Source: Pseudoalteromonas sp. '520P1 No. 423'
Lineage (GTDB): Bacteria > Pseudomonadota > Gammaproteobacteria > Enterobacterales > Alteromonadaceae
Assembly (NCBI RefSeq): GCF_001269985.1
Contig: NZ_BBZB01000001.1
Span: 3,782,001 to 3,846,000 of the forward strand
Length of the DNA stretch: 64,000 bases
Reading direction: 5' to 3'
Positions 6,498-19,980 of the stretch are shown here, piece after piece (the first letter of the stretch is position 1; the number at the start of each line of letters is the position of its first letter). The position numbers and the translations under genes were made by a program. Under the pieces are notes generated by a model. That model searched no databases, had not been told where the DNA came from, and saw only the letters and a list, made by a program, of their open reading frames with translations.

Positions 6498-7011
6498 GGT
6501 TTCAGTTCTCTCGTTTATGTTATCAATATAAGGTTTATTATTTGACAGTTTTATTTTATTAACACGCTAGCAACATCAACACTAATCACTATTGACACAA
6601 GTGTCGACTTTTAATTGTTTAATTTTAACGCTAAATTTGATTTTTAATTATGCAGCTAAACACAAGAATATATGTCCCTTTTTTGTATTGTGATTAAACA
6701 AAGTAAATCGACTTCTATACAATAAAAAAACAGCATATTTACTGCTAAAATCCATTAAAAGAGTCTAAATAGAGCGAATAGATATAAAATAGATTAGGAA
6801 AAAACTTATTTTTAACGATATAAAAACAGGGGAAGAATAAATGGATTTTTACTATGACCCAAAATACAAACTACTACAAAAACTTAATACATATATGTGA
6901 TAGCGCCCTATTACACTTATATATACAAATTGATATTAATGGGAAATTTGCAACAAAGGATTTTAGAAATCAAACCTTAGTTAAATTTTTAAAACCTAAA
7001 ATAAAACTTAC
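6498..7011 (-). other. Purine permease promoter region
   Basis: About 510 AT-rich bases between the permease start and the left end of the IS element. It holds the palindrome at 6592-6607; no convincing gene was found in the rest. Confidence 0.6.
6592..6607. promoter_or_regulatory. RutR-like operator upstream of the purine permease
   Basis: TTGACAC-AA-GTGTCGA is a near-perfect 7-2-7 palindrome (one mismatch), 95-110 bases before the permease start on the minus strand. The E. coli RutR box TTGACCA-NN-TGGTCAA has the same geometry and outer bases. A closely similar site precedes xdhA (35803-35818), and a RutR-like TetR protein is encoded at 20862-21509. The pairing of that protein with these sites is inference. 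Confidence 0.6.
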
Positions 7012-7041
7012 TGTAATGGTCAACTCAACTTGGAGACTTCT

Positions 7042-7890
7042 TTAGGCACTTTTTAGTAATTTCATTTCATATTCTGCTGGTGAAATATTTCCTAACTTAT
7101 AATGGCGGCGCTTTTGATTATAAAATGGTTCTATATAATCAATAATATCGGCTATCGCTTCACTCCTCGTTTGATAACGACGATAATTAACTCGCTCAGA
7201 TTTTAAACTGCGAAAAAACCTTTCTGTAACAGCATTATCTAAACAATTTCCTCGGCGACTCATACTCGCTTTAATATCATATTCATTTAGCGTTTCTTGA
7301 AATGTTTCACTCGTATATTGGACTCCCTGGTCACTATGGAATATAACGTCATCATTTGGTTGTCGTTTATTTACTGCTAAGCGTATTGCTCTTGTTGTTA
7401 ACTCACTATTTGGTTTATCTGAGAATGCCCAACTAATTACTTTACGCGAGCATAAATCCATAATCACAGCTAAATAAAGCCAGCCTTGTTGTGTTCGGAT
7501 ATAGGTAATATCGCCAGACCAAAGTGTATTTAGCTGCTCAGGGTTAAATTGCCTATTCAAGTGATTTGGTGCGATAACTGATGTTTTACCACCTGATGGA
7601 TAACTATGTTGCTTAGGTCGTTTAGCTACAAGCTTTAACCGCTTCATTACTGTTCTAACTTTATGAATACCTAGGTTAAAACCCATCGACTGAAGCTCTA
7701 TTAGCATTCTGCGTTTGCCATAAGTTGCATCCATATCAACATGAACTTGCTTCATGGCCGCTTCGAGTGTTACTTGTTCAGCATTTATAACTTTAGGCTT
7801 TGAACGATAATAAAATGTACTTGCCGCAATCGATAAGCACCGACAAATTTTCTGAACTTTATTTCCTGCCTTCTTCAACATAACAGCCAC
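7042..7890 (-). CDS. IS3-family transposase OrfB (DDE integrase domain)
   Basis: Catalytic half of the transposase. An HTH_21-like region (TYGKRRMLIELQSMG) precedes the rve integrase core. The DDE residues are seen in SGDITYIRT, in FHSDQGVQYTS and in NAVTERFFRSLKSE, so the triad is complete. The C terminus YNQKRRHYKLGNISPAEYE is typical. It is normally made as an OrfAB fusion by -1 frameshifting; the -1 frame is open from the A7 run near 7930 into this frame. The listed start is a GTG and may not be used alone. Confidence 0.9.
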   Translation of the reverse strand: MAVMLKKAGNKVQKICRCLSIAASTFYYRSKPKVINAEQVTLEAAMKQVHVDMDATYGKRRMLIELQSMGFNLGIHKVRTVMKRLKLVAKRPKQHSYPSGGKTSVIAPNHLNRQFNPEQLNTLWSGDITYIRTQQGWLYLAVIMDLCSRKVISWAFSDKPNSELTTRAIRLAVNKRQPNDDVIFHSDQGVQYTSETFQETLNEYDIKASMSRRGNCLDNAVTERFFRSLKSERVNYRRYQTRSEAIADIIDYIEPFYNQKRRHYKLGNISPAEYEMKLLKSA

Positions 7891-8189
7891 TTGCTGCCGT
7901 TGTTCATTTCCATAGCGAAAAAGGCCGACGCTTTTTTTAATAGTTGATTATCACTTTTTAACTGTTTTATTTGTTTTTCTAACTCTAAAATACGTATTTG
8001 TTCAGGAGATAAAGCACTCGCTTTTGGTGTGATACCTTGTTGCTCTTTTTTATACTGACTGATCCAACGCTGAATTGAAGATAACCCTACGCCCATAGCT
8101 ACCGCTGTATCTTTATGTTTGTAGCCATGTACAATCACTAGCTCTGCACATTCACGTTTAGATTCTGCTGATAATATTTTCTTTGGCAT
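7875..8189 (-). CDS. IS3-family transposase OrfA (HTH and leucine zipper)
   Basis: DNA-binding half, 104 residues. An HTH_Tnp_1 domain covers about 5-50 (ECAELVIVHGYKHKDTAVAM, then SSIQRWISQYKKE), followed by a heptad coiled coil (ILELEKQIKQLKSDNQLLKKA). It overlaps orfB by 16 bases. The codons TTA AAA AAA before GCG give an A7 slippery run suited to -1 frameshifting, the usual way IS3 elements make the OrfAB transposase. Confidence 0.9.
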   Translation of the reverse strand: MPKKILSAESKRECAELVIVHGYKHKDTAVAMGVGLSSIQRWISQYKKEQQGITPKASALSPEQIRILELEKQIKQLKSDNQLLKKASAFFAMEMNNGSKWLLC

Positions 8190-8262
8190 TTTTGACCTCG
8201 TTATTTTTGATAATAATACCTCTAACGAAGTCTCTAGTTAAATTCTACCTTTACACTACAAG

Positions 8263-8370
8263 CTTTATACATTCACGTTTGAATTCAGCTCATAATATTT
8301 TTTGCATTTTACCATTGTTATTTTAGATAATACCTAAAACGTAGCCTCTAGTTAAATTTTACCGTTACAC
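8263..8370 (-). mobile_element. Relic of a second, related IS3 right end
   Basis: This stretch is a diverged copy of the adjacent IS right end: the orfA 5' region, the spacer and the outer repeat recur (CATTCACGTTT, GATAAT, CTCTAGTTAAATT, ending ACCGTTACA). It implies an earlier related insertion next to the present one, of which only the end survives. Confidence 0.7.
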
Positions 8371-8437
8371 AAAGTTACAACTGAATTAAAACTCTTTAAT
8401 TTTAGAAACTTAAGAAGAGTAAAACACATTTCAAGCT

Positions 8438-8460
8438 GTAGCTTGTAGCTTGTAGCTTGT
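8438..8460. repeat. Heptamer microsatellite GTAGCTT x3
   Basis: Three perfect tandem GTAGCTT units followed by a partial unit, 50 bases before the SDR gene start. Copy number could vary by slippage and might alter promoter or leader spacing; no direct evidence for that. Confidence 0.7.
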
Positions 8461-8509
8461 ATTATTGATAGAATTATACATATATGATAATGCTAACTGG
8501 AAAAATATA

Positions 8510-9307
8510 ATGACTAAAAAAGATGCCTTAATAGGTTACAGTGGATTTGTCGGTAGCACACTTTTAAAACAAAAAAAATTCAATGGCTTATACCGCTCAA
8601 CTAATATAACTGAGATTAGAAACAAGTCATTTGATACTGTCGTTTGTGCTGGAGCTCCCGCTGTGAAATGGTTAGCGAACAAGGATCCAGAGCAAGATAA
8701 ACAGAGTATACAAGACTTAATCTCACATTTGTCGACCATAAAATGTGAACAATTCATATTAATTAGTACGGTAGATGTCTTTCAAAACCCTAATCAAGCA
8801 ACTGAATCAACTTCAATTGACACATCGGGTCTTCATCCCTACGGCCTCCACAGGTATGAGCTTGAAGAGTTTGTAAAGGCTAATTTTTTAAATCATCTTA
8901 TCATTCGCCTACCAGGCCTAGTTGGCCCTGGGCTTAAAAAGAATATCATTTATGACTTTTTAAACAACAATAATTTAGAGGCTATAGATAGCGGTGGTGT
9001 TTTCCAGTTTTACCCTATGGTAAACTTATGGCCAGATATCCAAGTTGCTATTAAGAACAACTGTAATCTTTTACATTTAACGGCTGAACCATTATCTGTT
9101 AGTGATATTGCAAAAGAGTGTTTTAACTTAGATTTTGACAATAAATTAAGTGATACGCCTGCTAGTTATGACTTTCAAACAGAGGTCTCTCATTTATTTC
9201 ATACTGAGCAACCTTATCAATACTCTAAAAAAGAAACATTATTAGCGATTCGTTCTTATGCTCAATCAGAAACTAAGAAAGAGGTGAATAATGATATCAA
9301 TCTCTAA
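8510..9307 (+). CDS. NAD(P)-dependent sugar epimerase/dehydratase-like (extended SDR)
   Basis: First gene of a seven-gene operon. A Rossmann fold starts at residue 9 with GYSGFVG (GxxGxxG); LISTVDVF near 84-91 is the active-site Ser/Thr region, and HPYGLHR at 109-115 is the YxxxK position with Lys replaced by Arg. LIIRLPGLVGPG follows the usual RPxxVYGP pattern. The ATG at 8510 is chosen because the Rossmann strand begins immediately after it; the upstream TTG at 8465 adds residues that fit no fold. About 265 residues, shorter than most nucleotide-sugar epimerases. Substrate unknown; probably tailors a sugar for the glycosyltransferases downstream. It overlaps the next gene by 17 bases. Confidence 0.8.
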   Translation: MTKKDALIGYSGFVGSTLLKQKKFNGLYRSTNITEIRNKSFDTVVCAGAPAVKWLANKDPEQDKQSIQDLISHLSTIKCEQFILISTVDVFQNPNQATESTSIDTSGLHPYGLHRYELEEFVKANFLNHLIIRLPGLVGPGLKKNIIYDFLNNNNLEAIDSGGVFQFYPMVNLWPDIQVAIKNNCNLLHLTAEPLSVSDIAKECFNLDFDNKLSDTPASYDFQTEVSHLFHTEQPYQYSKKETLLAIRSYAQSETKKEVNNDINL

Positions 9308-10106
9308 TATTGCTTGGGATGTAGCCAAGGATGAGGATGTTGCTAAAGTTTTAAACGACTATGCCGTTCCTTACATCGACATAGCACCTCCAAAATACTT
9401 TGACATACCTAGCCAAGCAGAAGAAAGAAAAATCTTAGAGGTAAAGCATTACTGGAATAGTAAGGGAGTCGAACCTATTGGGATGCAAGCCCTCTTGTTT
9501 GGTACTACTGGCCTTAATGTTTTTGGAACAAGTGAAACACAAAACTTGCTTTTACAGCATTTAACTCATATTTGTAGAATAGGAAGCTCTCTTGGTGCGA
9601 AAAAACTTGTTTTTGGCTCACCTAAAAACAGAGACCGCTCTCATTTAGACGATAATCAAACACTAAAAATGTCGGTCGATTTCTTTAGACGCTTAGGTGC
9701 TATAGCTGAGAGTTATGGTGTTGTTATATGTCTAGAGCCTAACCCTGAATGTTATCAAGCGAACTTTATGACGAACAGCATTGATACAGCGGTTATTGTA
9801 CAAGAAGTTAATCACGCTCATATTCGAATGCAGCTTGATATTGGTGCAATGGATATCAACAATGAAGACCCTGCTAAAATTATAAAATCAGTAGCGCCCA
9901 TTATTCATCACATTCATATTAGTGAACCACAACTTGCTCCATTGAACCAAAATAACCCCTATCACAAAAAAGCAGCTGAAGCGATACAAACCTATTTGCC
10001 AGAAATGCCTATGACAATTGAAATGCTAACAACCAACTCTTACTCATCAATTAAGCAAATACGAAATGCAATAGAGCTAATGCAACAAGTTTATAGAGGC
10101 TTATAG
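9291..10106 (+). CDS. Xylose isomerase-like TIM-barrel protein (sugar isomerase/epimerase)
   Basis: AP-endonuclease-2/xylose isomerase-like barrel of 271 residues. Putative metal ligands lie at Glu149 (CLEPNP), Asp183 (QLDIGAMD), His207 or His209 (HHIHISE) and Glu244 (TIEML), the E-D-H-E arrangement of the D-tagatose 3-epimerase group. Its start overlaps the SDR gene's end, with an AGAGGTG ribosome site, so it is translationally coupled. A keto-sugar or cyclitol isomerisation is likely; the actual substrate cannot be named. Confidence 0.8.
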   Translation: MISISNIAWDVAKDEDVAKVLNDYAVPYIDIAPPKYFDIPSQAEERKILEVKHYWNSKGVEPIGMQALLFGTTGLNVFGTSETQNLLLQHLTHICRIGSSLGAKKLVFGSPKNRDRSHLDDNQTLKMSVDFFRRLGAIAESYGVVICLEPNPECYQANFMTNSIDTAVIVQEVNHAHIRMQLDIGAMDINNEDPAKIIKSVAPIIHHIHISEPQLAPLNQNNPYHKKAAEAIQTYLPEMPMTIEMLTTNSYSSIKQIRNAIELMQQVYRGL

Positions 10107-10457
10107 ATGAAATGGTTAATTTTGGTTTTGGGTATTTTTTCAAATGCATCAGCAAGTGTTTTGATTAAGGTTGCGATGACTAATACATCCGCACCAATAC
10201 AGCTTAGTAAGCCGTTGTCTATCATTGGAAACATTCCGTTAGTCTCGGGGCTTAGCCTGTATGGATTAGCTTTCATACTCTATGCCGTTGCTCTAACATA
10301 CCTACCTTTAAATGTAGCCCACCCTACATTAACTAGCGGCTCCATTGCGTTAGTCGCAATCGCTTCAGTTGCTTTTTTTGGTGAAACACTCTCTCCTATC
10401 AATATAGCAGGCATCTTATTAATAACTCTTGGGGTTGTTGCGTTAACAATTAATTAA
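10107..10457 (+). CDS. ArnE-like small EamA/DMT transporter subunit (putative lipid-linked sugar flippase)
   Basis: 116 residues with four predicted membrane helices (about 2-20, 38-58, 65-87, 94-114). The sequence NVAHPTLTSGSIALVAIASV resembles ArnE and other short DMT proteins that flip polyprenyl-phosphate sugars (IAYPMLSL in ArnE). The acidic residue of EmrE-type drug pumps in helix 1 is absent (IFSNASASVLIK), arguing against a multidrug transporter. The ATG follows the preceding stop codon with no gap. A single gene, so it may act as a homodimer, unlike the ArnE/ArnF pair. Confidence 0.75.
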   Translation: MKWLILVLGIFSNASASVLIKVAMTNTSAPIQLSKPLSIIGNIPLVSGLSLYGLAFILYAVALTYLPLNVAHPTLTSGSIALVAIASVAFFGETLSPINIAGILLITLGVVALTIN

Positions 10458-10460
10458 CTT

Positions 10461-11579
10461 ATGTATAAAAATGTAGATATCACAATTATTGGCGGTGGTT
10501 TTTTTGGCTTATATCTTGCCGAATATTACTCTCTGTTGAACAAAAAAGTATTGATCATCGAAAAAGAAAACGATGCGATGCAAAGAGCTTCATATAACAA
10601 TCAGGCTCGTGTTCATAATGGGTATCATTACCCTAGAAGCGTCCTTACAGCTTTACGTTCACGCATCTCTTTTCCTCGGTTTGTTGACGAGTTCGCATCA
10701 TGTATTGATAATGATTTTGATAAGTATTACATGATATCTAATCGGTTAGGTAAAGTTACCCCTAACCAATTTGAAAAGTTCTGTGATCGAATAGGTGCAT
10801 CGCACGAGCCTGCATCATCGGCAATACATCAGTTAGTTAAACCTAATATGATTGATAGCATCTTCAAGGTAAAGGAGTTTGCATTTAATTCAACCCTTTT
10901 GAAAGAAACTATGTTAAACAGATTGCAAAATAATAATGTTGAAATTTTGTTTAATCACGAAGTGTCTAAAATTAAAAAAAACAATTCTAACTTAGAGCTT
11001 ACCGTTACCTCAGGTACAGAAATACAAAAGGTTACGAGCAAACAAGTGTTTAACTGCACTTATTCATTGTTGAACTCTGTCTTATCAGAGTCGAGTCTTG
11101 AACTTATTCCTTTAAGACATGAAATGACAGAAATGTGCATTGTTGATGTCCCTGATGAATTGAAAAAAGTTGGTATTACTGTAATGTGCGGTCCATTTTT
11201 TTCCATTATGCCTTTTCCATCTAAACAAGCACATTCTTTTAGTCATGTACGTTATACACCACATTACGAGTGGGATGATAATAACGAAAATTCTTATTTA
11301 AATGCTCATAAATTGGCAAAAGAAAACCTGCGAAAAAGTGCATTTAAAAAAATGCAATTAGATGCTCAACGTTATATCCCGATGCTAGAAGATATAAATT
11401 ATAAAGAATCGTTATGGGAAGTAAAAACAATTTTGCCTCGCAGTGGTACAGATGATTCACGCCCGATTTTATTTAAAGCAAATTATGGATTAGAAGGCTT
11501 ACACTGCGTAATGGGTGGGAAAATTGATAATGTGTATGACGTGATACAAACAATTAATGAATTAGGATTAGATAAATGA
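10461..11579 (+). CDS. FAD-dependent oxidoreductase, DAO family
   Basis: 372 residues. The dinucleotide fold is at the start: ITIIGGGFFGLYLAEYY (GxGxxG) with an acidic end VLIIEKEND. NNQARVHNGYHYPRS near 47-61 is a distinctive conserved-looking loop of unknown role. A C-terminal KANYGLEGLHCVMGGKIDN segment fits the second FAD contact. No signal peptide, so cytoplasmic. In this operon it probably oxidises a sugar or amino-sugar intermediate. It starts three bases after the small transporter gene and overlaps the next gene by ATGA. Confidence 0.78.
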   Translation: MYKNVDITIIGGGFFGLYLAEYYSLLNKKVLIIEKENDAMQRASYNNQARVHNGYHYPRSVLTALRSRISFPRFVDEFASCIDNDFDKYYMISNRLGKVTPNQFEKFCDRIGASHEPASSAIHQLVKPNMIDSIFKVKEFAFNSTLLKETMLNRLQNNNVEILFNHEVSKIKKNNSNLELTVTSGTEIQKVTSKQVFNCTYSLLNSVLSESSLELIPLRHEMTEMCIVDVPDELKKVGITVMCGPFFSIMPFPSKQAHSFSHVRYTPHYEWDDNNENSYLNAHKLAKENLRKSAFKKMQLDAQRYIPMLEDINYKESLWEVKTILPRSGTDDSRPILFKANYGLEGLHCVMGGKIDNVYDVIQTINELGLDK

Positions 11580-12595
11580 TAAAAAGCGATACTTTTATCT
11601 CTGTTGTATTAATCGTTAAAAATCAAACAGAGAAGTTAATAGGGTATATAGATAAACTATCCCCATACTTAGACCATCACCTTAATGACTATGAAATTGT
11701 CATTATCGATCAAAACTCCAAAGATGGTTTAGAGAACGAGCTCCCAAAATCACTTGCAACTCATCAATCGATAAGGCATATCCGTTTATCTCAAGAGGAA
11801 AGTAATGATGTTGCTCTTGCTGCTGGGCTAGAGAATGCAATCGGAGATTTTGTTATCAATTTAAATATTGAAAGTGATGATGTAGAAATAGTATTGCCAT
11901 TAATGGAATATGCTTTATTAGGTAATGATATTATTATATGCACATCAAATAAAGTAACTTCTTATTTTTATAAGAAAATTAAAATAGTATCAACTGGGTT
12001 GCTAAAATCTATAGGGTATACATTGCCAAATGACAGTACAGGAACGTTTTGCTTTAGCAGAAGATCTGTCAATGCCATTACAGAGTCAGGCCGTTACTAC
12101 TGCAAATTGCATATGAGAATGGCCAATATTGGTTATAATCTCCACCCATTCGATGCCAATCAATACACACATACCAATAAGAAAAAGAACATAACACGTG
12201 GTATAACTGAAACTCTTCATCATATGGTGTTTAACTCAACAAAACCACTTCGTTGGATGAGTTTTTTAGGCGTTATAGGCAGTATTCTAGCTATGTTTTT
12301 TTCAATTTATAGCCTATTAGTACATTTAATTAATGACACTGTAGCTTCAGGTTGGACAACAACAATCCTCTTTATGTCAATGTTATTTGCCATTTTATTC
12401 ACGATGCTATCATTTTTTGGTGAGTATCTAGCTAGGTTATTAAATGACCGTAGTGAACACAAAGATTATAACGTTGTATATGAGAAAAATAGCTCTGTTA
12501 TGTTAAATGAGAATCGTAGCAATGTTTTATTCACCTCAGTTAATAATGAAATGAATAACAAACAGGAAAGAATAAATGATAATACATTCAGCTAA
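11576..12595 (+). CDS. GtrB/ArnC-like GT2 glycosyltransferase with two C-terminal membrane helices
   Basis: 339 residues. The N-terminal GT2 fold has SVVLIVKNQTEKL, EIVIIDQNSKDG and FVINLNIESDD (the DxD-like site is weak). Two membrane helices at about 227-250 and 257-282 are followed by GEYLARLLNDRS, the arrangement of polyprenyl-phosphate sugar synthases such as GtrB and ArnC. Likely role: transfer of a sugar from a nucleotide donor to undecaprenyl phosphate on the cytoplasmic face. It overlaps the FAD gene by 4 bases and the next gene by 20. Confidence 0.8.
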   Translation: MIKSDTFISVVLIVKNQTEKLIGYIDKLSPYLDHHLNDYEIVIIDQNSKDGLENELPKSLATHQSIRHIRLSQEESNDVALAAGLENAIGDFVINLNIESDDVEIVLPLMEYALLGNDIIICTSNKVTSYFYKKIKIVSTGLLKSIGYTLPNDSTGTFCFSRRSVNAITESGRYYCKLHMRMANIGYNLHPFDANQYTHTNKKKNITRGITETLHHMVFNSTKPLRWMSFLGVIGSILAMFFSIYSLLVHLINDTVASGWTTTILFMSMLFAILFTMLSFFGEYLARLLNDRSEHKDYNVVYEKNSSVMLNENRSNVLFTSVNNEMNNKQERINDNTFS

Positions 12596-13364
12596 TCATC
12601 AAGTTCCAAGTTATGATGAAGTGTTTACTTCAAAAAAAAGGCACGATTATTGTGTTGCAATATTTGTTATCAATGAAGGCAAAAAGCTACATAAACAATT
12701 ACAACGAATGAAAGATTCTCATCTAAATGTGGATGTCATCATATCTGATGGAGGAAGTACGGATGGGTCAACAGATACACAAACACTGCAAGCATTGAAT
12801 GTTAATACATTACTCGTGAAGAAAGAAGCAGGCAAGCTTGGTAGCCAAATGAGAATTGCCTTTTCTTGGGCGCTGAAAAAGGGCTACAAAGGAGTCGTAG
12901 TAATTGATGGCAATAATAAGGATAGTGTTAAAAATATAAATGATTTTGTCATAAAACTAGAAGAAGGTTATGACCATATTCAAGGCTCTAGATTTATCCC
13001 TGGAGGTAAGGCTATTAACACACCAATATCCCGATTACTAGGACTAAAACTTTTACATGTGCCAATGATGAGAATGGCCTCAGGTTTTAAGTATACAGAT
13101 ACTACGAATGGCTTCAGAGCCTACAGCAAAAACTTATTACTTGATGATAATATGGCTGTATTTAGAGATGTATTCACAAGTTATGAGTTTCATTATTACT
13201 TAGCTATTACAGCAGCAAAAAAAGGTTTTAAATGTATAGAAATCCCGGTAACAAGAACTTATCCGAAGGGAAAAGTGCCAACTAAAATATCACCAATAAA
13301 AGGTAATTTAGGCGTTATCAAAACTTTATTTAAAACTTCTTTAGGGTTTTACAATGAAAAGTAA
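12576..13364 (+). CDS. GT2 family glycosyltransferase, dolichol-phosphate mannosyltransferase-like, soluble
   Basis: 262 residues without clear membrane helices. VIISDGGSTDGSTD and VVVIDGNNKD carry the nucleotide and metal-binding acidic residues; GSRFIPGGKAINTP matches the G(S/T)R acceptor-loop region of DPM1-like enzymes, and TTNGFRAYS follows. A second GT2 in the same operon suggests either a two-sugar unit or separate lipid-linking and chain-extending steps. Overlaps both neighbours (20 and 11 bases). Confidence 0.8.
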   Translation: MIIHSANHQVPSYDEVFTSKKRHDYCVAIFVINEGKKLHKQLQRMKDSHLNVDVIISDGGSTDGSTDTQTLQALNVNTLLVKKEAGKLGSQMRIAFSWALKKGYKGVVVIDGNNKDSVKNINDFVIKLEEGYDHIQGSRFIPGGKAINTPISRLLGLKLLHVPMMRMASGFKYTDTTNGFRAYSKNLLLDDNMAVFRDVFTSYEFHYYLAITAAKKGFKCIEIPVTRTYPKGKVPTKISPIKGNLGVIKTLFKTSLGFYNEK

Positions 13365-15978
13365 TAACTTCCTATCCCAATCTATACACCTTATTGTGGC
13401 ATTTATATTCTCTTTGATGATAGCTATATTATATTACAAAATTAATATAATTAACATTGACCCCTATGATCAATTTATATATGGGGATACCATTAATGCT
13501 TCATATAGCAAACTTACCGACTATAGATTTTTACTTATATTATTCAGTCTGTTTCTTTTCTCTTTCTTTATTTTTGATAAATTTAAAGTCATAACGAAAT
13601 GTATAAATGGATACAGTAGCCTCTTAACATTCCTACCCCTAATAAAAAGCAATAAGTTTACGTCCATTATTTTTGACTTCCTTTTGGTTGTACTTTTCTC
13701 TTACTTATCTAGTAAGGTTTTATTTAGCATAATAGGGTGGGAGCATTACTCAACATTTAATCGAAATGTGTTTATTATCTCAATTATGGTGATTTCGCTC
13801 TCTTTTAAGCAAAGAGCACCGTTAGTCTCTCAATTATTTTTTTCTGTTTCGCCTTTAGTCTATTTGAATGAAAGTTATATTTTTAACGGTGACGTCATTC
13901 ATTTCCCCCCTTCTGATAATTTAAGCTACCTTATCTATTTTATATCTTTGATTACGCTAATCATTTCAATTAATGATGTAATGAAAAATAATAGCAAAAT
14001 TAATTTCTCATTTTTGGTTTTTGTTTGCGTAGCATTAATAGGTGAAGGTAGTCGGATTTATGCTTTAGATGAGTATCACCTTGGTGAGGTGTTTACTAAT
14101 TTTCATCAGGGCATTACTTTAAATCAAGCATATTACTCAGAATATATTCCTACTAAAGGTTTTATGCATACTTTTACAGGTTTATTGAATAACACTTTCT
14201 ACGACGGTGGTTATACTACCATCGGATTGTCTTTAAAACTATCAGCACTGATTACAGTAATATTAGCGTTGGGAGTTCTTGGCTTTTTCTATAGTAAATT
14301 TATCCTCTTAATTCTTTTATGTATCGGCCTGCCCTTCACAGGACATTACGCACCGATATTAATTGGTATTTGTATACTAAGTAGTAAAAGAGTAGTAAAT
14401 GATAGTTACAACTTCATGATAGCCTCATTATTATTCTCCTTTTTTTACTTTGTTTATTATAATGCGTTTGCCATTGCTTTCGGACTTGTAATTCTTCCTA
14501 TTCTTATTTATCACTTAAAAGAGATAGTCATTCATAAATATCACCCTAATAAATTGCAATCTATTTCGTTTATTATTGGGATGCTTATTTTAATTTTCCT
14601 TTTTAATTATATTACTTCATCAGTAGCTTATGTTCTATCAAATAGCTCAAGTAACTTATTCTACTGGGGAAATTCAGGCACTTTCGAATCATTGTTAAAA
14701 AGTAATTTATGGGTATTAATACCCATAGTCCTTTCTTTTCTTATCTATACTAAAAATCTGGTTATTAATAAAGACAATATATTGTGGCTTTGCTTTTTTA
14801 TTATATTCCCCTTCGTCATTTTATCCTATCTTGAAGGAAGAGCTGATGGTCGATTTTCTCGAGCCTTTCTTTTCACAGCCTTCTGCGCACCAATGATTTT
14901 TGCATTCATCAACAACAAGAGTGTTGAACTTAATAAAGTCACTAAGTTGATATTATCATCACTTTTTATAATTATTTACTTCATTACTAGCAACCCTGCA
15001 TGGATTAAAATTAAAGGTATTAACAATTTCCATCGCGTATTTTCAGACAAAGGCATTGATAATAAGCACATATTAATAGATGAAAATGAAATACCTAATT
15101 TAGGTGATGGCTTTATAAAGAAAAGAAGGTATCAAGACCTAAAAAACGAGTATGAGCTTATTAGTAATTTATCAAGCAATGAGACATTTTTATTAATAGA
15201 TAAATATGTTACGCAAAGTGCTCGTTATTCAATCTATGATAAATTAACGCCAACTTTAAATCATTCTATTCTTAATGTAAGTAGCTTAGAGTTACAAAAC
15301 AAAGAGTTAGTCAAAGTTAAAAACTCTAATGTGGAAATAATAAGAGTTTCTAATGGAGTTCGTCGGTATCATCTTTTCTTTAATTACTTATCATCCTTAA
15401 ACTTTAAGTTTATATCATTTAAGGGTAGAGACTATCTTGTTTCACCTGAAGTATTCTCATCTATAGAAAATAAACTTGACTTCATTGTTAATAATTCTTT
15501 TGAACAAAAATACTCTACTAACCAATTTGGTTTACTTCCAATTAAATGGGGTAGTGCTCTAAGCAATCAGTTGTCTAACCTAGTAAATGCTAGAGTAGAT
15601 GAATCATTTTCTAAGAGTAATAGTATTAATAATTTTAGCAATATTGTTAGTGGCAAGGATCCTTGGCTCTTATATGATATAAAGAATCAACTTAGGCCAT
15701 TAGAGATTGATTTAATAAATTTAAACTTTAGTCTAAGTAAAGATGTCATATGTAACTCTCAATTATTTTGGGATGATGGGGGTGGTTTTAGTGAAGCTAA
15801 GTCAATAAGATTTAATATAGGCAATGGCGACAACGTAATCCCCATACATATGAACTACGACTGGAGAACCTCTTCTGAAATTTTGGGAATCCGAGTTGAT
15901 ATTGATAGCTGTAATAATAAGAAAGTGACCTTAAATAAAATTGAGGCCTATAAATATAACTTCCACATAAAAGATTAA
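13354..15978 (+). CDS. Large polytopic membrane protein, probable GT-C-type glycosyltransferase with C-terminal soluble domain
   Basis: 874 residues. Residues 1-540 hold roughly 12 hydrophobic segments; about 560-874 is a hydrophilic domain probably in the periplasm, as in GT-C enzymes. A loop near residues 234-245 (RIYALDEYHLGE) has an acidic DE pair but is not the first loop, so assignment to GT-C rests on topology and context, not on a signature. Expected job: transfer of the lipid-linked sugar to a periplasmic or outer-membrane acceptor, analogous to ArnT or GtrC. Very AT-rich. It could instead be a polymerase-like protein. Confidence 0.6.
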   Translation: MKSNNFLSQSIHLIVAFIFSLMIAILYYKINIINIDPYDQFIYGDTINASYSKLTDYRFLLILFSLFLFSFFIFDKFKVITKCINGYSSLLTFLPLIKSNKFTSIIFDFLLVVLFSYLSSKVLFSIIGWEHYSTFNRNVFIISIMVISLSFKQRAPLVSQLFFSVSPLVYLNESYIFNGDVIHFPPSDNLSYLIYFISLITLIISINDVMKNNSKINFSFLVFVCVALIGEGSRIYALDEYHLGEVFTNFHQGITLNQAYYSEYIPTKGFMHTFTGLLNNTFYDGGYTTIGLSLKLSALITVILALGVLGFFYSKFILLILLCIGLPFTGHYAPILIGICILSSKRVVNDSYNFMIASLLFSFFYFVYYNAFAIAFGLVILPILIYHLKEIVIHKYHPNKLQSISFIIGMLILIFLFNYITSSVAYVLSNSSSNLFYWGNSGTFESLLKSNLWVLIPIVLSFLIYTKNLVINKDNILWLCFFIIFPFVILSYLEGRADGRFSRAFLFTAFCAPMIFAFINNKSVELNKVTKLILSSLFIIIYFITSNPAWIKIKGINNFHRVFSDKGIDNKHILIDENEIPNLGDGFIKKRRYQDLKNEYELISNLSSNETFLLIDKYVTQSARYSIYDKLTPTLNHSILNVSSLELQNKELVKVKNSNVEIIRVSNGVRRYHLFFNYLSSLNFKFISFKGRDYLVSPEVFSSIENKLDFIVNNSFEQKYSTNQFGLLPIKWGSALSNQLSNLVNARVDESFSKSNSINNFSNIVSGKDPWLLYDIKNQLRPLEIDLINLNFSLSKDVICNSQLFWDDGGGFSEAKSIRFNIGNGDNVIPIHMNYDWRTSSEILGIRVDIDSCNNKKVTLNKIEAYKYNFHIKD

Positions 15979-15993
15979 TTTATAAGTGATAAA

Positions 15994-16023
15994 GTTGGTG
16001 GAGGACTAGAGTTCTCCACTAAC
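15994..16023 (+). terminator. Possible terminator hairpin after the glycan operon
   Basis: GTTGGTGGAG and CTCCACTAAC pair along ten positions (one G-T pair) around a ten-base loop, 16 bases after the stop. No T tract follows, so termination would be weak. Confidence 0.4.
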
Positions 16024-16149
16024 ATTAAGCTCTACTGTGACAGTATTTTTGTGTTTGTTAATTGTGTAGTGGTACAGTAATTTTGACCAACTAGTTAGAG
16101 GAGATATAATTCATCTCAGTATTTTTATAGGTGACTCAATGAAAAACAG

Positions 16150-17374
16150 GTGGACTTCCCTGATTTCACTAGACAGATTTCAATTCAGAAAATAATCTTC
16201 TTCAAACTTAGCTGGTGAAATACCGCAGTGTATGAGTGAAGCTTTTTAGGATTGAAGAACATTTCTATAAATTAAATACCTCAGCTTTCGCATCATTACG
16301 AGTTGTGTATATCTTATTTCAGACAATGCGTTTTTTGATCGTTGCAAAAAAGCTTTCAGCAACAGCATTATCATGACAATTTCCTCTTCGACTCATCGAT
16401 GGAACTAGGTTATGTTATTTCATGAATGCTAGCTAATCAGCACTGCCGTATTGGCTATCTTGATCGCTATACACCTAACTTCTGATTTTGGTTGGCGTTG
16501 ATAAACAGCCATTAATAAAGCTTTTATCACTAATTGCTTATCCATATTTCTATCCATTGACCACCCAGCAATCCGTCTTGAAAATAGAACCATCACGGTT
16601 GCAAAATATAAAAAACCTTCATTCGTTCAATGTAGGTAATATCACTTACCCACGATTGATTAGGAGCAGACGGATTAAATTGGTGTGCTAACAAATTATC
16701 GGCGACTCAATATGGTTTACCACCTTTTATGTAGTGTCGTTTAAACCTATTTTTGCTTTGAAATAATGCTGTCGCATTACCTTTGCAACACGATTAACAC
16801 TGCATTGTTCACCAATCTCACGTAAACCTTGGTAGATCCAAGGACAGCCATAAGTACCACCACTAGCAACATAAAACTCCTTGATAAGCTTAAATAAACG
16901 ATTGTCTTCAATCGTTCTATCGCTTTGTGGTTTATTTAAGCATACACAAAAACCACTGCGGTTTAACTTCATAACACGACACATAAATATAACTGAAAAC
17001 TCGTTACGATGGTTTCTAATAAAACAGTATTTTACTCTGGATTGTTGGCAAAGTACCTTTCGGCCTTTTTTAGGATGTCTCTCTCCGCTGTTACGCGTTT
17101 TAGCTCAGATTCAAGTTTTGCGATTTTTAATTGATCATCAGAAGATTGTTTTAGTTTAGGTTTTTTTAGATAACTGGCTCCGTCAGTGATATAAGGTTTT
17201 AGTACAAATTCCTAACTATTCTGACACTTCTGAAACTAAATAACCACATTCAGTGATTTGCTTTACAGCTTCAACTTTAAATTCTTGGGTATAACGTTTT
17301 CTTTACTCATAAACACCTCTTTTTTAGTTACATTGTAACTCTTTTAAGTGTCTAGCAAAGTCTAGGAAGTCCAC
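16150..17374 (-). mobile_element. Decayed IS3-family element
   Basis: Ends 16150-16175 and 17349-17374 are inverted repeats sharing GTGGACTTCC outside and CTAGACA inside. The minus strand holds fragments of both transposase frames: orfA coiled coil near 17030-17160 (LESELKRVTAERDILKKAE), an orfB N-terminal piece at 16727-16984 (GGTYGCPWIYQGLREIGEQC) and an orfB C-terminal piece near 16320-16400 (NAVAESFFATIKK). Many stops and frameshifts make it non-autonomous. The total of 1,225 bp equals a full IS3 length, so it decayed in place. Confidence 0.82.
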
Positions 17375-18705
17375 TCGACCAACTCCAATAGAGCCTCCTA
17401 ATTGAGCAAATATTGACTCAGTAAGAACAGCAAGCCCTAAACTTGAAGAGATAATAACGTCTAGTCCTTAGTTGATTATCATCATATTAATAAATAACCA
17501 ATCTTTCATACCAGATAAAGATAGTGACGAATAATAAAAAATAGTGTCACTGATCAAATCATCTTCCATTAAAACAGTTATGCTCCTAGCCATAGCAAAT
17601 AATAAGTGCAATACTTAATAAGCTCTGAGCACCATTAACAAAGTTATTTACTATGCTTTTTTCGGTCATCCCGGCGCGGCTAAAGCAATCAAAATAGCAC
17701 CTGTAAAAAAGGCAGTTGTCATTTCCAAAATCATCATTGCAAGCTTATTGCCCCATAAACCATAGTGACAAAGGTACCGAAGAACAGTGTTAAAATAATC
17801 ACTACTTTTCTATCTAACTTTCCTATTGAATCCATATCTGATTTAAAAAAATGATTAATATTCTCTTGTTTAGCAAAAAATATCAAAGATTGGCTAGGGT
17901 CATTTTTTACTTTTTTTACTTTTTTTACATAGTGAAGAATATAAAATAAACGATGATACTTGCCGTAATTAATATAACGACTCTTAAACCAGTACCAACA
18001 GTCCAATTAATACCTGCAGAGTTAGAAGCTATTATGACACTAAACGGGTTTATAGTTGCCCCTAAAGCCCGGTAGCCGCCCCTAAATACAAAGTTGCTAG
18101 TGGTACTAATACATCGTAGCCTGCAACTAAAAAAACAAGAATTTAAATAGGGTAAAAAGCAATTAGATCTTCTGCCATCCCAAACGTCATACCGTCTATA
18201 CCAGTAAGTAAAAAAGAAAATACAATAAGGAGTTGTTCCTTTCCTTTTAATATATTAAAAGCGCATACATACCTTTATCAAAAGCCCCTGTGGCTCCAAC
18301 TAAACCTATCAAGCCTCCAACCACTTATACAAGTAAAATAATATCTATCGTATTATAAGAACCTTTTAAGAATGATTGTAAAAAATCAATCACATCTTAG
18401 GTAGCTGCTCGTAAGTATTAGGAATTACAATTGGTTTTAAAATTTTTCCTTGCGTAAAGCTTGCTAACTTTACTTTTATTCCTAACTCAGAAATTGTTTT
18501 TTCTGTTACTAGTAATTCGATTTGTGAATTATTTGTACTCAATATAAACATGTATTTATCTGAATTATATTCAATAGGGTCATACTGCCCAGCAGGAATA
18601 AACCAAGAAGTAATATAAACCAGAATGGCGATAAGAAAAAGTACTGTATGCGCGATATAAAATGAGTGAGGATTTTTTAGCTGGTCAGATTATCCCTGCT
18701 GTTTA
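17375..18705 (-). pseudogene. YfcC-family (C4-dicarboxylate/amino-acid-type) transporter, degraded and interrupted by the IS3 remnant
   Basis: The minus strand reads as a broken multi-helix carrier. From the N terminus: SFYIAHTVLFLIAILVYI then SWFIPAGQYD, GATGAFDKGMYALL, GIDGMTFGMAEDLIAFYP, ATGALGATINPFS, VVIILTLFFGTFVTMVYG and SGLAVLTESIFAQLGG. These match the order of blocks in YfcC-like permeases. Several frameshifts and stops are present. At 17374/17375 the frame runs straight into the IS3 end within the last conserved block, so the insertion removed the C terminus, and no remainder was found on the far side. Confidence 0.75.
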
Positions 18706-18864
18706 GATTTAACTATAAACTAGTTTTAGAGATTTTCACATTTTATGGCTTGGGATTTGAGAATTTAGTTTTATATCAAAAATCAGATATTACAGTGAAT
18801 TTAAAAATATCAAAGTAATAAATAGTCTACTTATTCGCATACAATTTATCCGAGCAAACTACTT

Positions 18865-19755
18865 TTATTGTTGCGCTATTAAATAATTCAGTTGCTCGAT
18901 GACAGTTTCAGGTTCATAAAAATGGATATTATGCTCTGTGGTTCTAGAGAACTCTACTCTCATATTAGTTGAAAGTTTATTCATGTCTTCAATCGCTTTT
19001 AAATACATGTTTTTCATCCTAGTCCACACCTTATTTTTCCCAAGATCTTTTCCAGGGGTCCAAATACCGTTCTTTGCCCATAAAAGAACAAAAGGCGTGT
19101 CTCCAAAATCATCAGCTTCTTTGATTATTTTTTCATTAGCTTTAAGGTCATGAAAGCCTATGTTTTTCATTGGTTCATTCCAATATGATAATTCCTCTAA
19201 GCGATCAGCTTCTTGATCTTTGCTATATTGCTCTGATTCAGGTTTCCATTTAGCTATTCGATTAGACCACTGCCCATATTGGCTAGGATCAATAAGTAAA
19301 ATACCTACAACATCACTAGAGTAAAGGTGATTATATGCTTTCACAGGGTACGAACCGTACGAATGACCAACCATTATATAAGGCGGCTTTACATCCACGT
19401 TTTTTAATAACGTATGAAGCTGCTCGCTAATATCATTGATATTGTATGCTTTTGATAATTTATCGCTTTTTCCCATATGTGCACGATCATAAATACAAAT
19501 CCTGTTTTTTTGACTCATTTTTTCTATTACAGCCCCCCACTCATCTTCAGAGCCATAACCATTAAAACCGGATTGAACAATAATGCTAGGTGATTTATCC
19601 CCATAACATTCAATGTGAAGTTTTATGCCACCAGCATCATACATACCATTAATATGATTTTTAAACTCTGCTGCATTACTATTCGTACTTATGCCTATTA
19701 GAACAATTAACAGCCAAAACATAAAATTAGCGGATAATATTTTTATCTTATTCAT
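18865..19755 (-). CDS. Secreted alpha/beta hydrolase
   Basis: 296 residues with a signal peptide (hydrophobic about 10-24, cleavage near NSNAA), so periplasmic or exported. Alpha/beta-hydrolase marks: oxyanion strand IIVQSGFNG near 60, the nucleophile elbow GHSYGS near 130, an acidic LLIDPSQYG region and a C-terminal His in TTEHNIHFYEP. Substrate unknown; small-ester or lactone hydrolases have this shape. Two identical-pattern palindromes 50-85 bases upstream suggest tight regulation. It is monocistronic, with decayed DNA downstream. Confidence 0.82.
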   Translation of the reverse strand: MNKIKILSANFMFWLLIVLIGISTNSNAAEFKNHINGMYDAGGIKLHIECYGDKSPSIIVQSGFNGYGSEDEWGAVIEKMSQKNRICIYDRAHMGKSDKLSKAYNINDISEQLHTLLKNVDVKPPYIMVGHSYGSYPVKAYNHLYSSDVVGILLIDPSQYGQWSNRIAKWKPESEQYSKDQEADRLEELSYWNEPMKNIGFHDLKANEKIIKEADDFGDTPFVLLWAKNGIWTPGKDLGKNKVWTRMKNMYLKAIEDMNKLSTNMRVEFSRTTEHNIHFYEPETVIEQLNYLIAQQ

Positions 19756-19803
19756 AACTTTCGCTCTGTATTTTAATATTTAGTAAATTCACAACACCAA
19801 TAT

Positions 19804-19838
19804 ATTACACATGTAATCAATAGAATTACAAGTGTAAT
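19804..19838. promoter_or_regulatory. Twin ATTACA-NN-TGTAAT operator upstream of the hydrolase
   Basis: ATTACACATGTAAT (19804-19817) and ATTACAAGTGTAAT (19825-19838) are two perfect palindromes repeating at exactly 21 bp, i.e. two DNA turns, which suits cooperative binding of two dimers on one face. They lie 49-83 bases before the hydrolase start. The regulator is not identifiable from the window. Confidence 0.7.
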
Positions 19839-19980
19839 GTTAAAATTAAAAAAGCACTTTAGGTTTGAGCTTATTTTTTGATATTAAATTCTTAAAACAG
19901 TTAAAAGTTTTGATTTATATGGGGACTTACAAAGAGGATATTTCAGCACCAAACGAACCGTCTGGTGCCAAAGAGAAGAA

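Follow-up and report, generated by a model that had tools for sequence, protein, structure and literature searches.

A 64,000-nucleotide stretch of the Pseudoalteromonas sp. '520P1 No. 423' genome (contig NZ_BBZB01000001.1, positions 3,782,001 to 3,846,000; hereafter the window) carries a seven-gene operon (window positions 8510 to 15978, plus strand) that very likely encodes a surface-glycan modification system acting through a lipid carrier. Taken as a whole, the operon is best explained, in our judgement with moderate confidence, as a horizontally moving extracytoplasmic glycosylation cassette that would make its own rare-sugar donor on that carrier. The finding is real, and it is wider than was recognised in a preliminary description of the window made from the nucleotide sequence alone.

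The operon opens with an SDR gene of the Epimerase family (8510 to 9307; Pfam PF01370), the probable ketone reductase of an SDR, TIM and flavoprotein trio, followed by an AP_endonuc_2 TIM-barrel gene (TIM; 9291 to 10106; PF01261), whose product is a probable enolising epimerase or dehydratase, and by an SMR-family gene (10107 to 10457; PF00893) for a probable flippase of the lipid-linked sugar. Next come a DAO-family flavoprotein gene (FAD; 10461 to 11579; PF01266), encoding a probable sugar oxidase or dehydrogenase, and two GT2 genes. The first, GTa (11576 to 12595), specifies a degenerate GtrB/ArnC-like membrane protein recognised with a GtrB profile and is a probable partner of the flavoprotein; the second, GTb (12576 to 13364), is of the AglJ/DPMS type by NCBIfam and a probable undecaprenyl-phosphate hexose synthase. 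The last gene (13354 to 15978) encodes an 874-residue membrane protein with a soluble C-terminal part, a putative GT-C-type transferase judging from its hydropathy. All seven genes lie on the plus strand, with junctions, in order, of a 17-bp overlap, no gap, a 3-bp gap, and overlaps of 4, 20 and 11 bp. This coupled arrangement has exactly the coordinates and junctions given in the preliminary description; the families named there for the first six genes were confirmed by Pfam and NCBIfam, and the idea of an Arn/Gtr-type logic joined to unusual sugar enzymes in one coupled operon is supported. The earlier reading thus holds in part, for operon logic, sugar enzymes and acquisition; its GtrB/ArnC-like GT2 is probably not the loading enzyme, and the set has a precedent in E. 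coli.

Neighbourhoods of the flavoprotein gene were obtained by scanning an eight-sequence alignment against 84,980 species genomes and retaining the best 80 of at least 413 relatives, 52 of which are flanked by 5 kb or more on each side of the gene (well-flanked loci). Private profiles of the seven genes were built from the loci in hand, and presence thresholds were set after the neighbourhoods had first been read. GTa was found in 50 of the 52 well-flanked loci, and in 47 it lies no more than 300 bp from the flavoprotein gene; SDR and TIM are present in 44 each and GTb in 43; SDR, TIM and GTa fall together inside 8 kb in 42 loci, and with GTb as well in 40. Among all 80 loci, SDR and TIM are both present in 58, the TIM start lying at the SDR end in 51. 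The carriers, many of them metagenome-assembled genomes, include several classes of Proteobacteria as well as Cyanobacteria, Planctomycetes, Verrucomicrobia, Lentisphaerae and Ignavibacteria. SDR, TIM, SMR, FAD, GTa and GTb form a recurring core, shuffled in gene order and spread over many bacterial groups, and the set is not a chance association. A tblastn search of 72,556 plasmids gave a concordant picture, as the flavoprotein (E 1e-5), TIM and SDR (both E 1e-10) each matched the same 12 records, for 8 of which the annotation was read. By these 52 loci and 12 plasmids, the SDR, TIM and flavoprotein genes do not occur mostly with unrelated partners, an outcome that the preliminary description had named as fatal to its reading. 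At the class level, TIM matched (E 1e-30) in 2 of 274 genomes, both times within the cassette, and the flavoprotein (E 1e-10) in 5, two of these at just 25-27% identity. Among 349 genomes of the phylum, in each of which at most five flavoprotein candidates were scored, TIM was found in 6, the host genome among them, and the flavoprotein in 3. FAD, GTa, SDR, GTb and TIM lie inside 7 kb in G620; G729 has SDR-TIM-GTb and GTa-FAD on two short contigs, and G598 has SDR-TIM-SMR-GTb on a 3.5-kb contig, the sets in both G729 and G598 being cut by contig ends. Separately, the distant flavoprotein homologues in L004 and L005 are part of open reading frames (ORFs) 760 and 671 residues long and may carry a further, fused domain.

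Within the core, pairwise sequence identities over the 43 loci with all five enzymes were most strongly correlated for FAD-GTa (rho 0.85) and SDR-TIM (rho 0.79), against 0.32-0.52 for the other eight pairs, and label shuffling reached the observed rho in 0 of 300 trials for each of FAD-TIM, FAD-GTa and FAD-SDR. From this pattern the core is read as two closely co-inherited pairs, FAD-GTa and SDR-TIM, plus GTb. This co-variation of GTa with the flavoprotein and the degeneracy of GTa described below are new here. The GTa profile matched the GtrB structure 5eke at E 3e-50 and covered GtrB and ArnC almost over their full length, C-terminal helices included, with PgfS and ArnC as the closest NCBIfam models, both under their curated cut-offs. 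All 79 aligned GTa copies have a shortened version of the catalytic loop IDADLQDPP. This alignment excludes L001, a duplicate, as well as the second, canonical copies in L032 and L061, and it includes a few members not adjoining the flavoprotein gene; the column of the first Asp holds Asp in 27 sequences and that of the second in 13, with both in just two (L064 and L092). As this DXD loop is shortened, GTa is probably not the loading enzyme and GTb is the better candidate. The fold and the helices in the earlier description of GTa, as a GtrB/ArnC-like GT2 with two C-terminal helices, are borne out. Aligned to a canonical profile, a D-x-D/N motif was present in all 30 GTb sequences that aligned and in 14 of 21 other GT2s (two of which had been used in building the profile), and a cruder pattern search recovered it in 66 of 81 GTb-labelled ORFs. 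GTb D111-x-N113 is invariant in 18 aligned sequences; its closest NCBIfam model is archaeal AglJ (1.8e-15, under cut-off), and it matches DPMS/ArnC over the N-terminal part only. Where no GTb was seen, in L032 and in L061 (the latter close to the end of its contig), a second GtrB is present that retains DADLQDPP in full. These features suggest that the active undecaprenyl-phosphate-hexose synthase would be GTb or a canonical GtrB, and that GTa may bind the lipid-linked sugar as a partner of the flavoprotein, without catalysis of its own. GTa and GTb are a single 592-residue ORF in a Psychrobacter plasmid (L006), and GTb is fused to a many-helix part in L009, L033 and L038.

Several observations weigh against the cassette model given at the outset. 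At the chosen thresholds, SDR and TIM were each not seen in 8 of the 52 well-flanked loci and GTb in 9, and a flippase of the SMR type is present in just 21. Genome G128 of the class has a close flavoprotein (E 2e-93) but no TIM match at 1e-30, and G648, one of the six phylum genomes with TIM, has TIM without partners. In the canonical-profile alignment, D-x-D/N was found in 5 of 84 GTa-labelled ORFs, although at least two of the five lie away from the cassette. Three viral contigs (L095, 4161 to 7504; L096, 9336 to 12451; L097, 9306 to 12446) have a phage glycosyltransferase-like gene, phrog_14945 in L095 and L096 (the two that were scanned), directly followed by a divergent FAD-SDR-TIM trio, with no membrane glycosyltransferase or flippase; as the trio occurs there without GTa, it can therefore work with another partner. 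These contigs, whose glycosyltransferase looks soluble, together with a divergent FAD-SDR-TIM trio in phylum genome G796, where GTa, GTb and the other gene profiles were unmatched, are what would be expected if the trio made its rare sugar in the cytoplasm, either free or linked to a nucleotide, with GTa as an unusual but active transferase using that donor and the lipid carrier entering later. We consider this improbable: Pfam and NCBIfam place no nucleotidyltransferase among the seven genes, the DXD loop is shortened in every one of the 79 GTa copies, and GTa co-varies most with the flavoprotein.

The flippase and the seventh protein are the changeable parts of the cassette. The window SMR protein matched NCBIfam models of the Qac/ArnF/ArnE type under cut-off, and among seven scanned small membrane proteins of other loci that are not SMR, five matched GtrA, one a holin family and one nothing; GtrA is also annotated in five alphaproteobacterial plasmids. 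The flippase is thus probably exchangeable, being of either SMR or GtrA type by these family matches. For the 874-residue protein, no match was obtained in Pfam or NCBIfam at E 0.1, in the PDB, or in the plasmid search. It has 13 hydropathy segments, an LDEYH motif at 239 after a helix at 214-233, and the soluble C-terminal part, features with which it would probably be a GT-C-like transferase. After the first helix, the seventh protein reads TDEA in Psychrobacter and DDW in Photobacterium sp. SKA34, and the E. coli seventh protein has no acidic pair within its first 330 residues. Large membrane proteins near other cassettes (n = 70) matched GT87 in five cases and PMT_2 in four, and several matched transporters or acyltransferases. 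When a profile of the 874-residue family was compared with these 70 proteins, the best match beyond the homologue in L016 reached just 18.5% probability, over a C-terminal stretch of L058, and the seventh proteins therefore cannot be called one family. Moritella dasanensis has a related 874-residue protein (45%) beside a more distant core (67% DNA identity), and in Salinivibrio (L058, 14777 to 17373) the first ~215 residues are a separate ORF with a 4-bp overlap. The window and SKA34 share the six-gene core (8441 to 13367, plus strand) at 86-92% DNA identity, and the match breaks off 14 bp after the start of gene seven. Gene seven is thus exchanged separately from the core, the behaviour to be expected were it to determine the acceptor.

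The cassette is also mobile. Among 60 genomes of the genus, G421 is the one besides the source genome that carries both genes flanking the cassette (94 and 92% identity); there they are adjacent, with 187 bp in place of window positions 6679 to 19930 (an unstranded interval). This empty site in a relative indicates that the cassette is acquired DNA, as had been supposed. In the 5.39-Mb, two-contig host genome it stands between a permease gene and a DHH-family gene, and the insertion sequence (IS) elements or relics reported on its two sides were recovered as an IS3-type transposase pair upstream (7042 to 8189, minus strand) and IS3-like remains downstream (16270 to 17300, minus strand, ends approximate), the latter recognised when its translation was compared with the upstream element. 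Of 147 genomes of the family, the host alone has the flavoprotein (E 1e-60). These IS3 sequences and this rarity would also suit a decaying or silent island from whose window copy no working glycan product arises; with all seven frames open and coupled, and the catalytic residues of TIM and GTb retained, we regard that as very improbable. Elsewhere, the 10.8-kb Psychrobacter plasmid pA22P4 (L006, 2336 to 8624) consists largely of the cassette, with little beyond mobilisation and replication genes, and a viral contig (L094, 8922 to 15616) carries GTa-FAD-SDR-TIM-SMR-GTb, with a large membrane protein encoded on the opposite strand and a gene for a CI-like repressor nearby; L094 is perhaps a prophage with a surface-conversion cassette. 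On a Mesorhizobium root-nodule plasmid (L010, 5989 to 10054), a divergent FAD and a divergent SDR are kept, and an inverted TIM lies beyond an IS5 element.

A link to a particular sugar comes from E. coli, where 7 of 5,426 genomes matched and the relevant stretch was read in each. In five of them gnd and ugd enclose near-identical sets, with wzm/wzt of the O89/O101/O162 type seen in both loci read with long flanks (L099 and L102); of the other two, one has a different O-antigen locus adjoining gnd (SY3626) and one match is on a plasmid. The flavoprotein gene is intact in NCTC10973 and 2017.17.03CC, and in three SCPM strains an IS4 precedes a shortened flavoprotein gene, at its 5' end, which lacks the GGGFFG motif in the single copy translated. 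As in the window, all six core genes stand in one run with a large membrane protein next, at tblastn identities to the window of 58% (FAD), 59% (SDR), 49% (TIM), 54% (SMR), 50% (GTb) and 41% (GTa), and by this comparison six of the seven window genes have homologues in the O162-type set of E. coli. Unlike the window, the order is FAD-GTa-SDR-TIM-SMR-GTb, the set adjoins an O-antigen locus rather than the permease and DHH-family genes, and that tblastn matched the seventh protein (452 residues) nowhere in the window. On E. coli plasmid pCUPF09A from pig faeces (L101, 14001 to 20860), the cassette lies in a region with tet(A), aminoglycoside phosphotransferase genes and IS26.

The Fig. 1 legend of PMC13168486 (2026), citing Liu et al. 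2020, presents this gene set as hypothesised to modify the O162 repeat, by adding its branch of 4-deoxy-D-arabino-hexose (ara4dHex), and that article places the sugar in O162, not in O101, with a transposon in the O101 copy of the set directly downstream of gnd. The earlier remark that no described pathway with this exact set was known is accordingly corrected for the six-gene core, which has this precedent beside E. coli gnd. The intact and IS4-cut alleles fit that O162/O101 contrast, although our E. coli records carry no stated serotypes and the contrast is second-hand, PMC13168486 citing a review. According to PMC11231755 (2024), the side chain of Franconibacter pulveris O1 consists of two 4-deoxy-D-arabino-hexose residues whose mode of synthesis is described as unclear. 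The sugar is reported from F. pulveris G3872 and from Citrobacter braakii PCM 1531. The O-antigens of O162 and F. pulveris O1 are both reported to follow the ABC-transporter route, with which addition of the side chain after polymerisation therefore fits. The openly licensed literature (CC0, CC BY, CC BY-SA) yielded no worked-out pathway for the gene set or for this sugar, which occurs in E. coli O162 and F. pulveris O1 and for whose synthesis the cassette is a concrete six-gene candidate. By analogy with E. coli, we give 4-deoxy-D-arabino-hexose an even chance of being the product in the Pseudoalteromonas genome. Xylulofuranose was also considered as a product and dropped, as nothing tied the gene set to it.

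We propose that GTb would load a common hexose, probably glucose from UDP-glucose, onto undecaprenyl phosphate, and that GTa, a membrane-bound pseudo-glycosyltransferase keeping the fold and helices but not the DXD loop, would present the lipid-linked sugar to the flavoprotein, which would oxidise one hydroxyl to a ketone. The TIM barrel would then take a proton beside the ketone, the SMR protein, or elsewhere GtrA, would flip the lipid-linked sugar, and the variable seventh protein would attach it to a surface glycan whose synthesis is encoded at another locus. With 4-deoxy-D-arabino-hexose as the product, oxidation would occur at C2 and TIM would be an IolE-like dehydratase, with the C4 hydroxyl leaving to give a 2,3-diketo-4-deoxy sugar that SDR would then reduce. 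Worked out on paper, the C4 hydroxyl of a 2-keto sugar is beta to the ketone, and loss of H3 and the C4 hydroxyl followed by tautomerisation leads to that diketo sugar; IolE performs the corresponding elimination on inosose. An arabino product has both C2 and C3 inverted relative to glucose, which C2 oxidation, IolE-like elimination and SDR reduction would together explain. We hold the specific chemistry tentatively, as a guess more apt to need revision than to stand. The same doubt, a shade stronger, attaches to the full account of deoxygenation on the lipid carrier, in which a dead GtrB homologue would dock a flavoprotein oxidising C2 of undecaprenyl-phosphate-glucose, an IolE-like TIM would eliminate the C4 hydroxyl, SDR would rebuild C2 and C3, and the mobile core would have spread the sugar.

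SDR has Tyr-x-x-x-Arg in 22 of 22 aligned relatives, with Arg at a motif position usually held by Lys, and E149, D183, H209 and E244 of TIM are invariant in 37 aligned sequences, matching what we take to be the metal site of the TIM superfamily. The TIM profile is nearest to 5-keto-L-gluconate epimerase and the D-tagatose 3-epimerases. Against the IolE model (TIGR04379), the window TIM scored 15.8 bits, far from the cut-off of 290, and 21 of the 37 relatives matched it weakly. As TIM matches epimerases best and IolE weakly, a plain epimerase is at least as likely by sequence. In that event the cassette would oxidise, epimerise and reduce: FAD would form a ketone, TIM would epimerise beside it and SDR would reduce it. 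The carrier would then bear a rare hexose that is not a deoxy sugar (altrose, allose or the like), and the 4-deoxy link from E. coli would not extend to this genome. All 37 TIM sequences match models for 5-keto-L-gluconate epimerase and hydroxypyruvate isomerase, and 35 match a D-psicose 3-epimerase model, in each case far below cut-off; the structure of a 3-keto-D-glucoside 4-epimerase (6wn6) is also among the profile matches. However, the SDR, TIM and flavoprotein of the window remain conserved in the E. coli set (49-59% identity), and PMC13168486 ties to the gene set a 4-deoxyhexose, the only sugar so linked in print. We therefore judge a non-deoxy product possible but somewhat unlikely.

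The cassette would work much as a Gtr-type system does, with its donor remodelled on the lipid. GtrA-GtrB-Gtr(type) glucosylation shares with it the logic of a lipid-linked donor, a small membrane flippase (SMR in the window, GtrA in several loci), a variable membrane protein, and occurrence on plasmids and in a prophage-like contig; the cassette differs in adding three sugar-modifying enzymes and a second GT2 and in the degeneracy of its own GtrB-like protein, such that the active GtrB transferase with a DXD motif has no counterpart in GTa; GTb may supply the activity. By the features compared, the cassette belongs to neither the Arn nor the DprE systems. ArnC-like and ArnE/F-like proteins recall the pathway for 4-amino-arabinose, but the ArnC-like protein, GTa, lacks the catalytic loop, and no ArnA, ArnB, ArnD or ArnT was found among the seven genes by Pfam and NCBIfam. 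DprE1 belongs to a flavoprotein family other than DAO (PF01266), that of the cassette flavoprotein, and the TIM barrel and pseudo-glycosyltransferase partner are extra relative to mycobacterial DprE1/DprE2. The likeness to DprE1/DprE2 lies in a flavoprotein and a reductase acting on a polyprenyl-phosphate sugar, as set out in PMC11127046. That article also provides a precedent for epimerases acting on lipid-linked pentofuranoses before export, in systems (C. youngae O1/O2, GT136) for which modification on the carrier, flipping and attachment after polymerisation are proposed, as here; the cassette instead has GT2 loading and the FAD, TIM and SDR set in place of one epimerase. Neither a PRPP-based polyprenyl phosphoribose synthase nor a MATE flippase was found among the seven genes by Pfam and NCBIfam.

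The cassette suggests that on-carrier sugar remodelling extends beyond the DprE and pentofuranose cases, and in GTa it offers a clear case in which a glycosyltransferase fold seems to have turned into a partner protein. It would also let many unannotated surface-glycan islands be read. Were deoxygenation on the lipid correct, one six-gene core would have spread undecaprenyl-phosphate-4-deoxy-D-arabino-hexose through many bacterial groups, plasmids and a prophage, and would represent a new way of making a deoxy sugar, with exchangeable flippases and transferases. Among minor features, an Rfam scan of the window returned no matches, an HTH_21 ORF (16727 to 16984) lies within the downstream IS3-like remains, and the open SDR frame reaches upstream to a TTG at 8465, the start of its relative L014 agreeing with the ATG at 8510.

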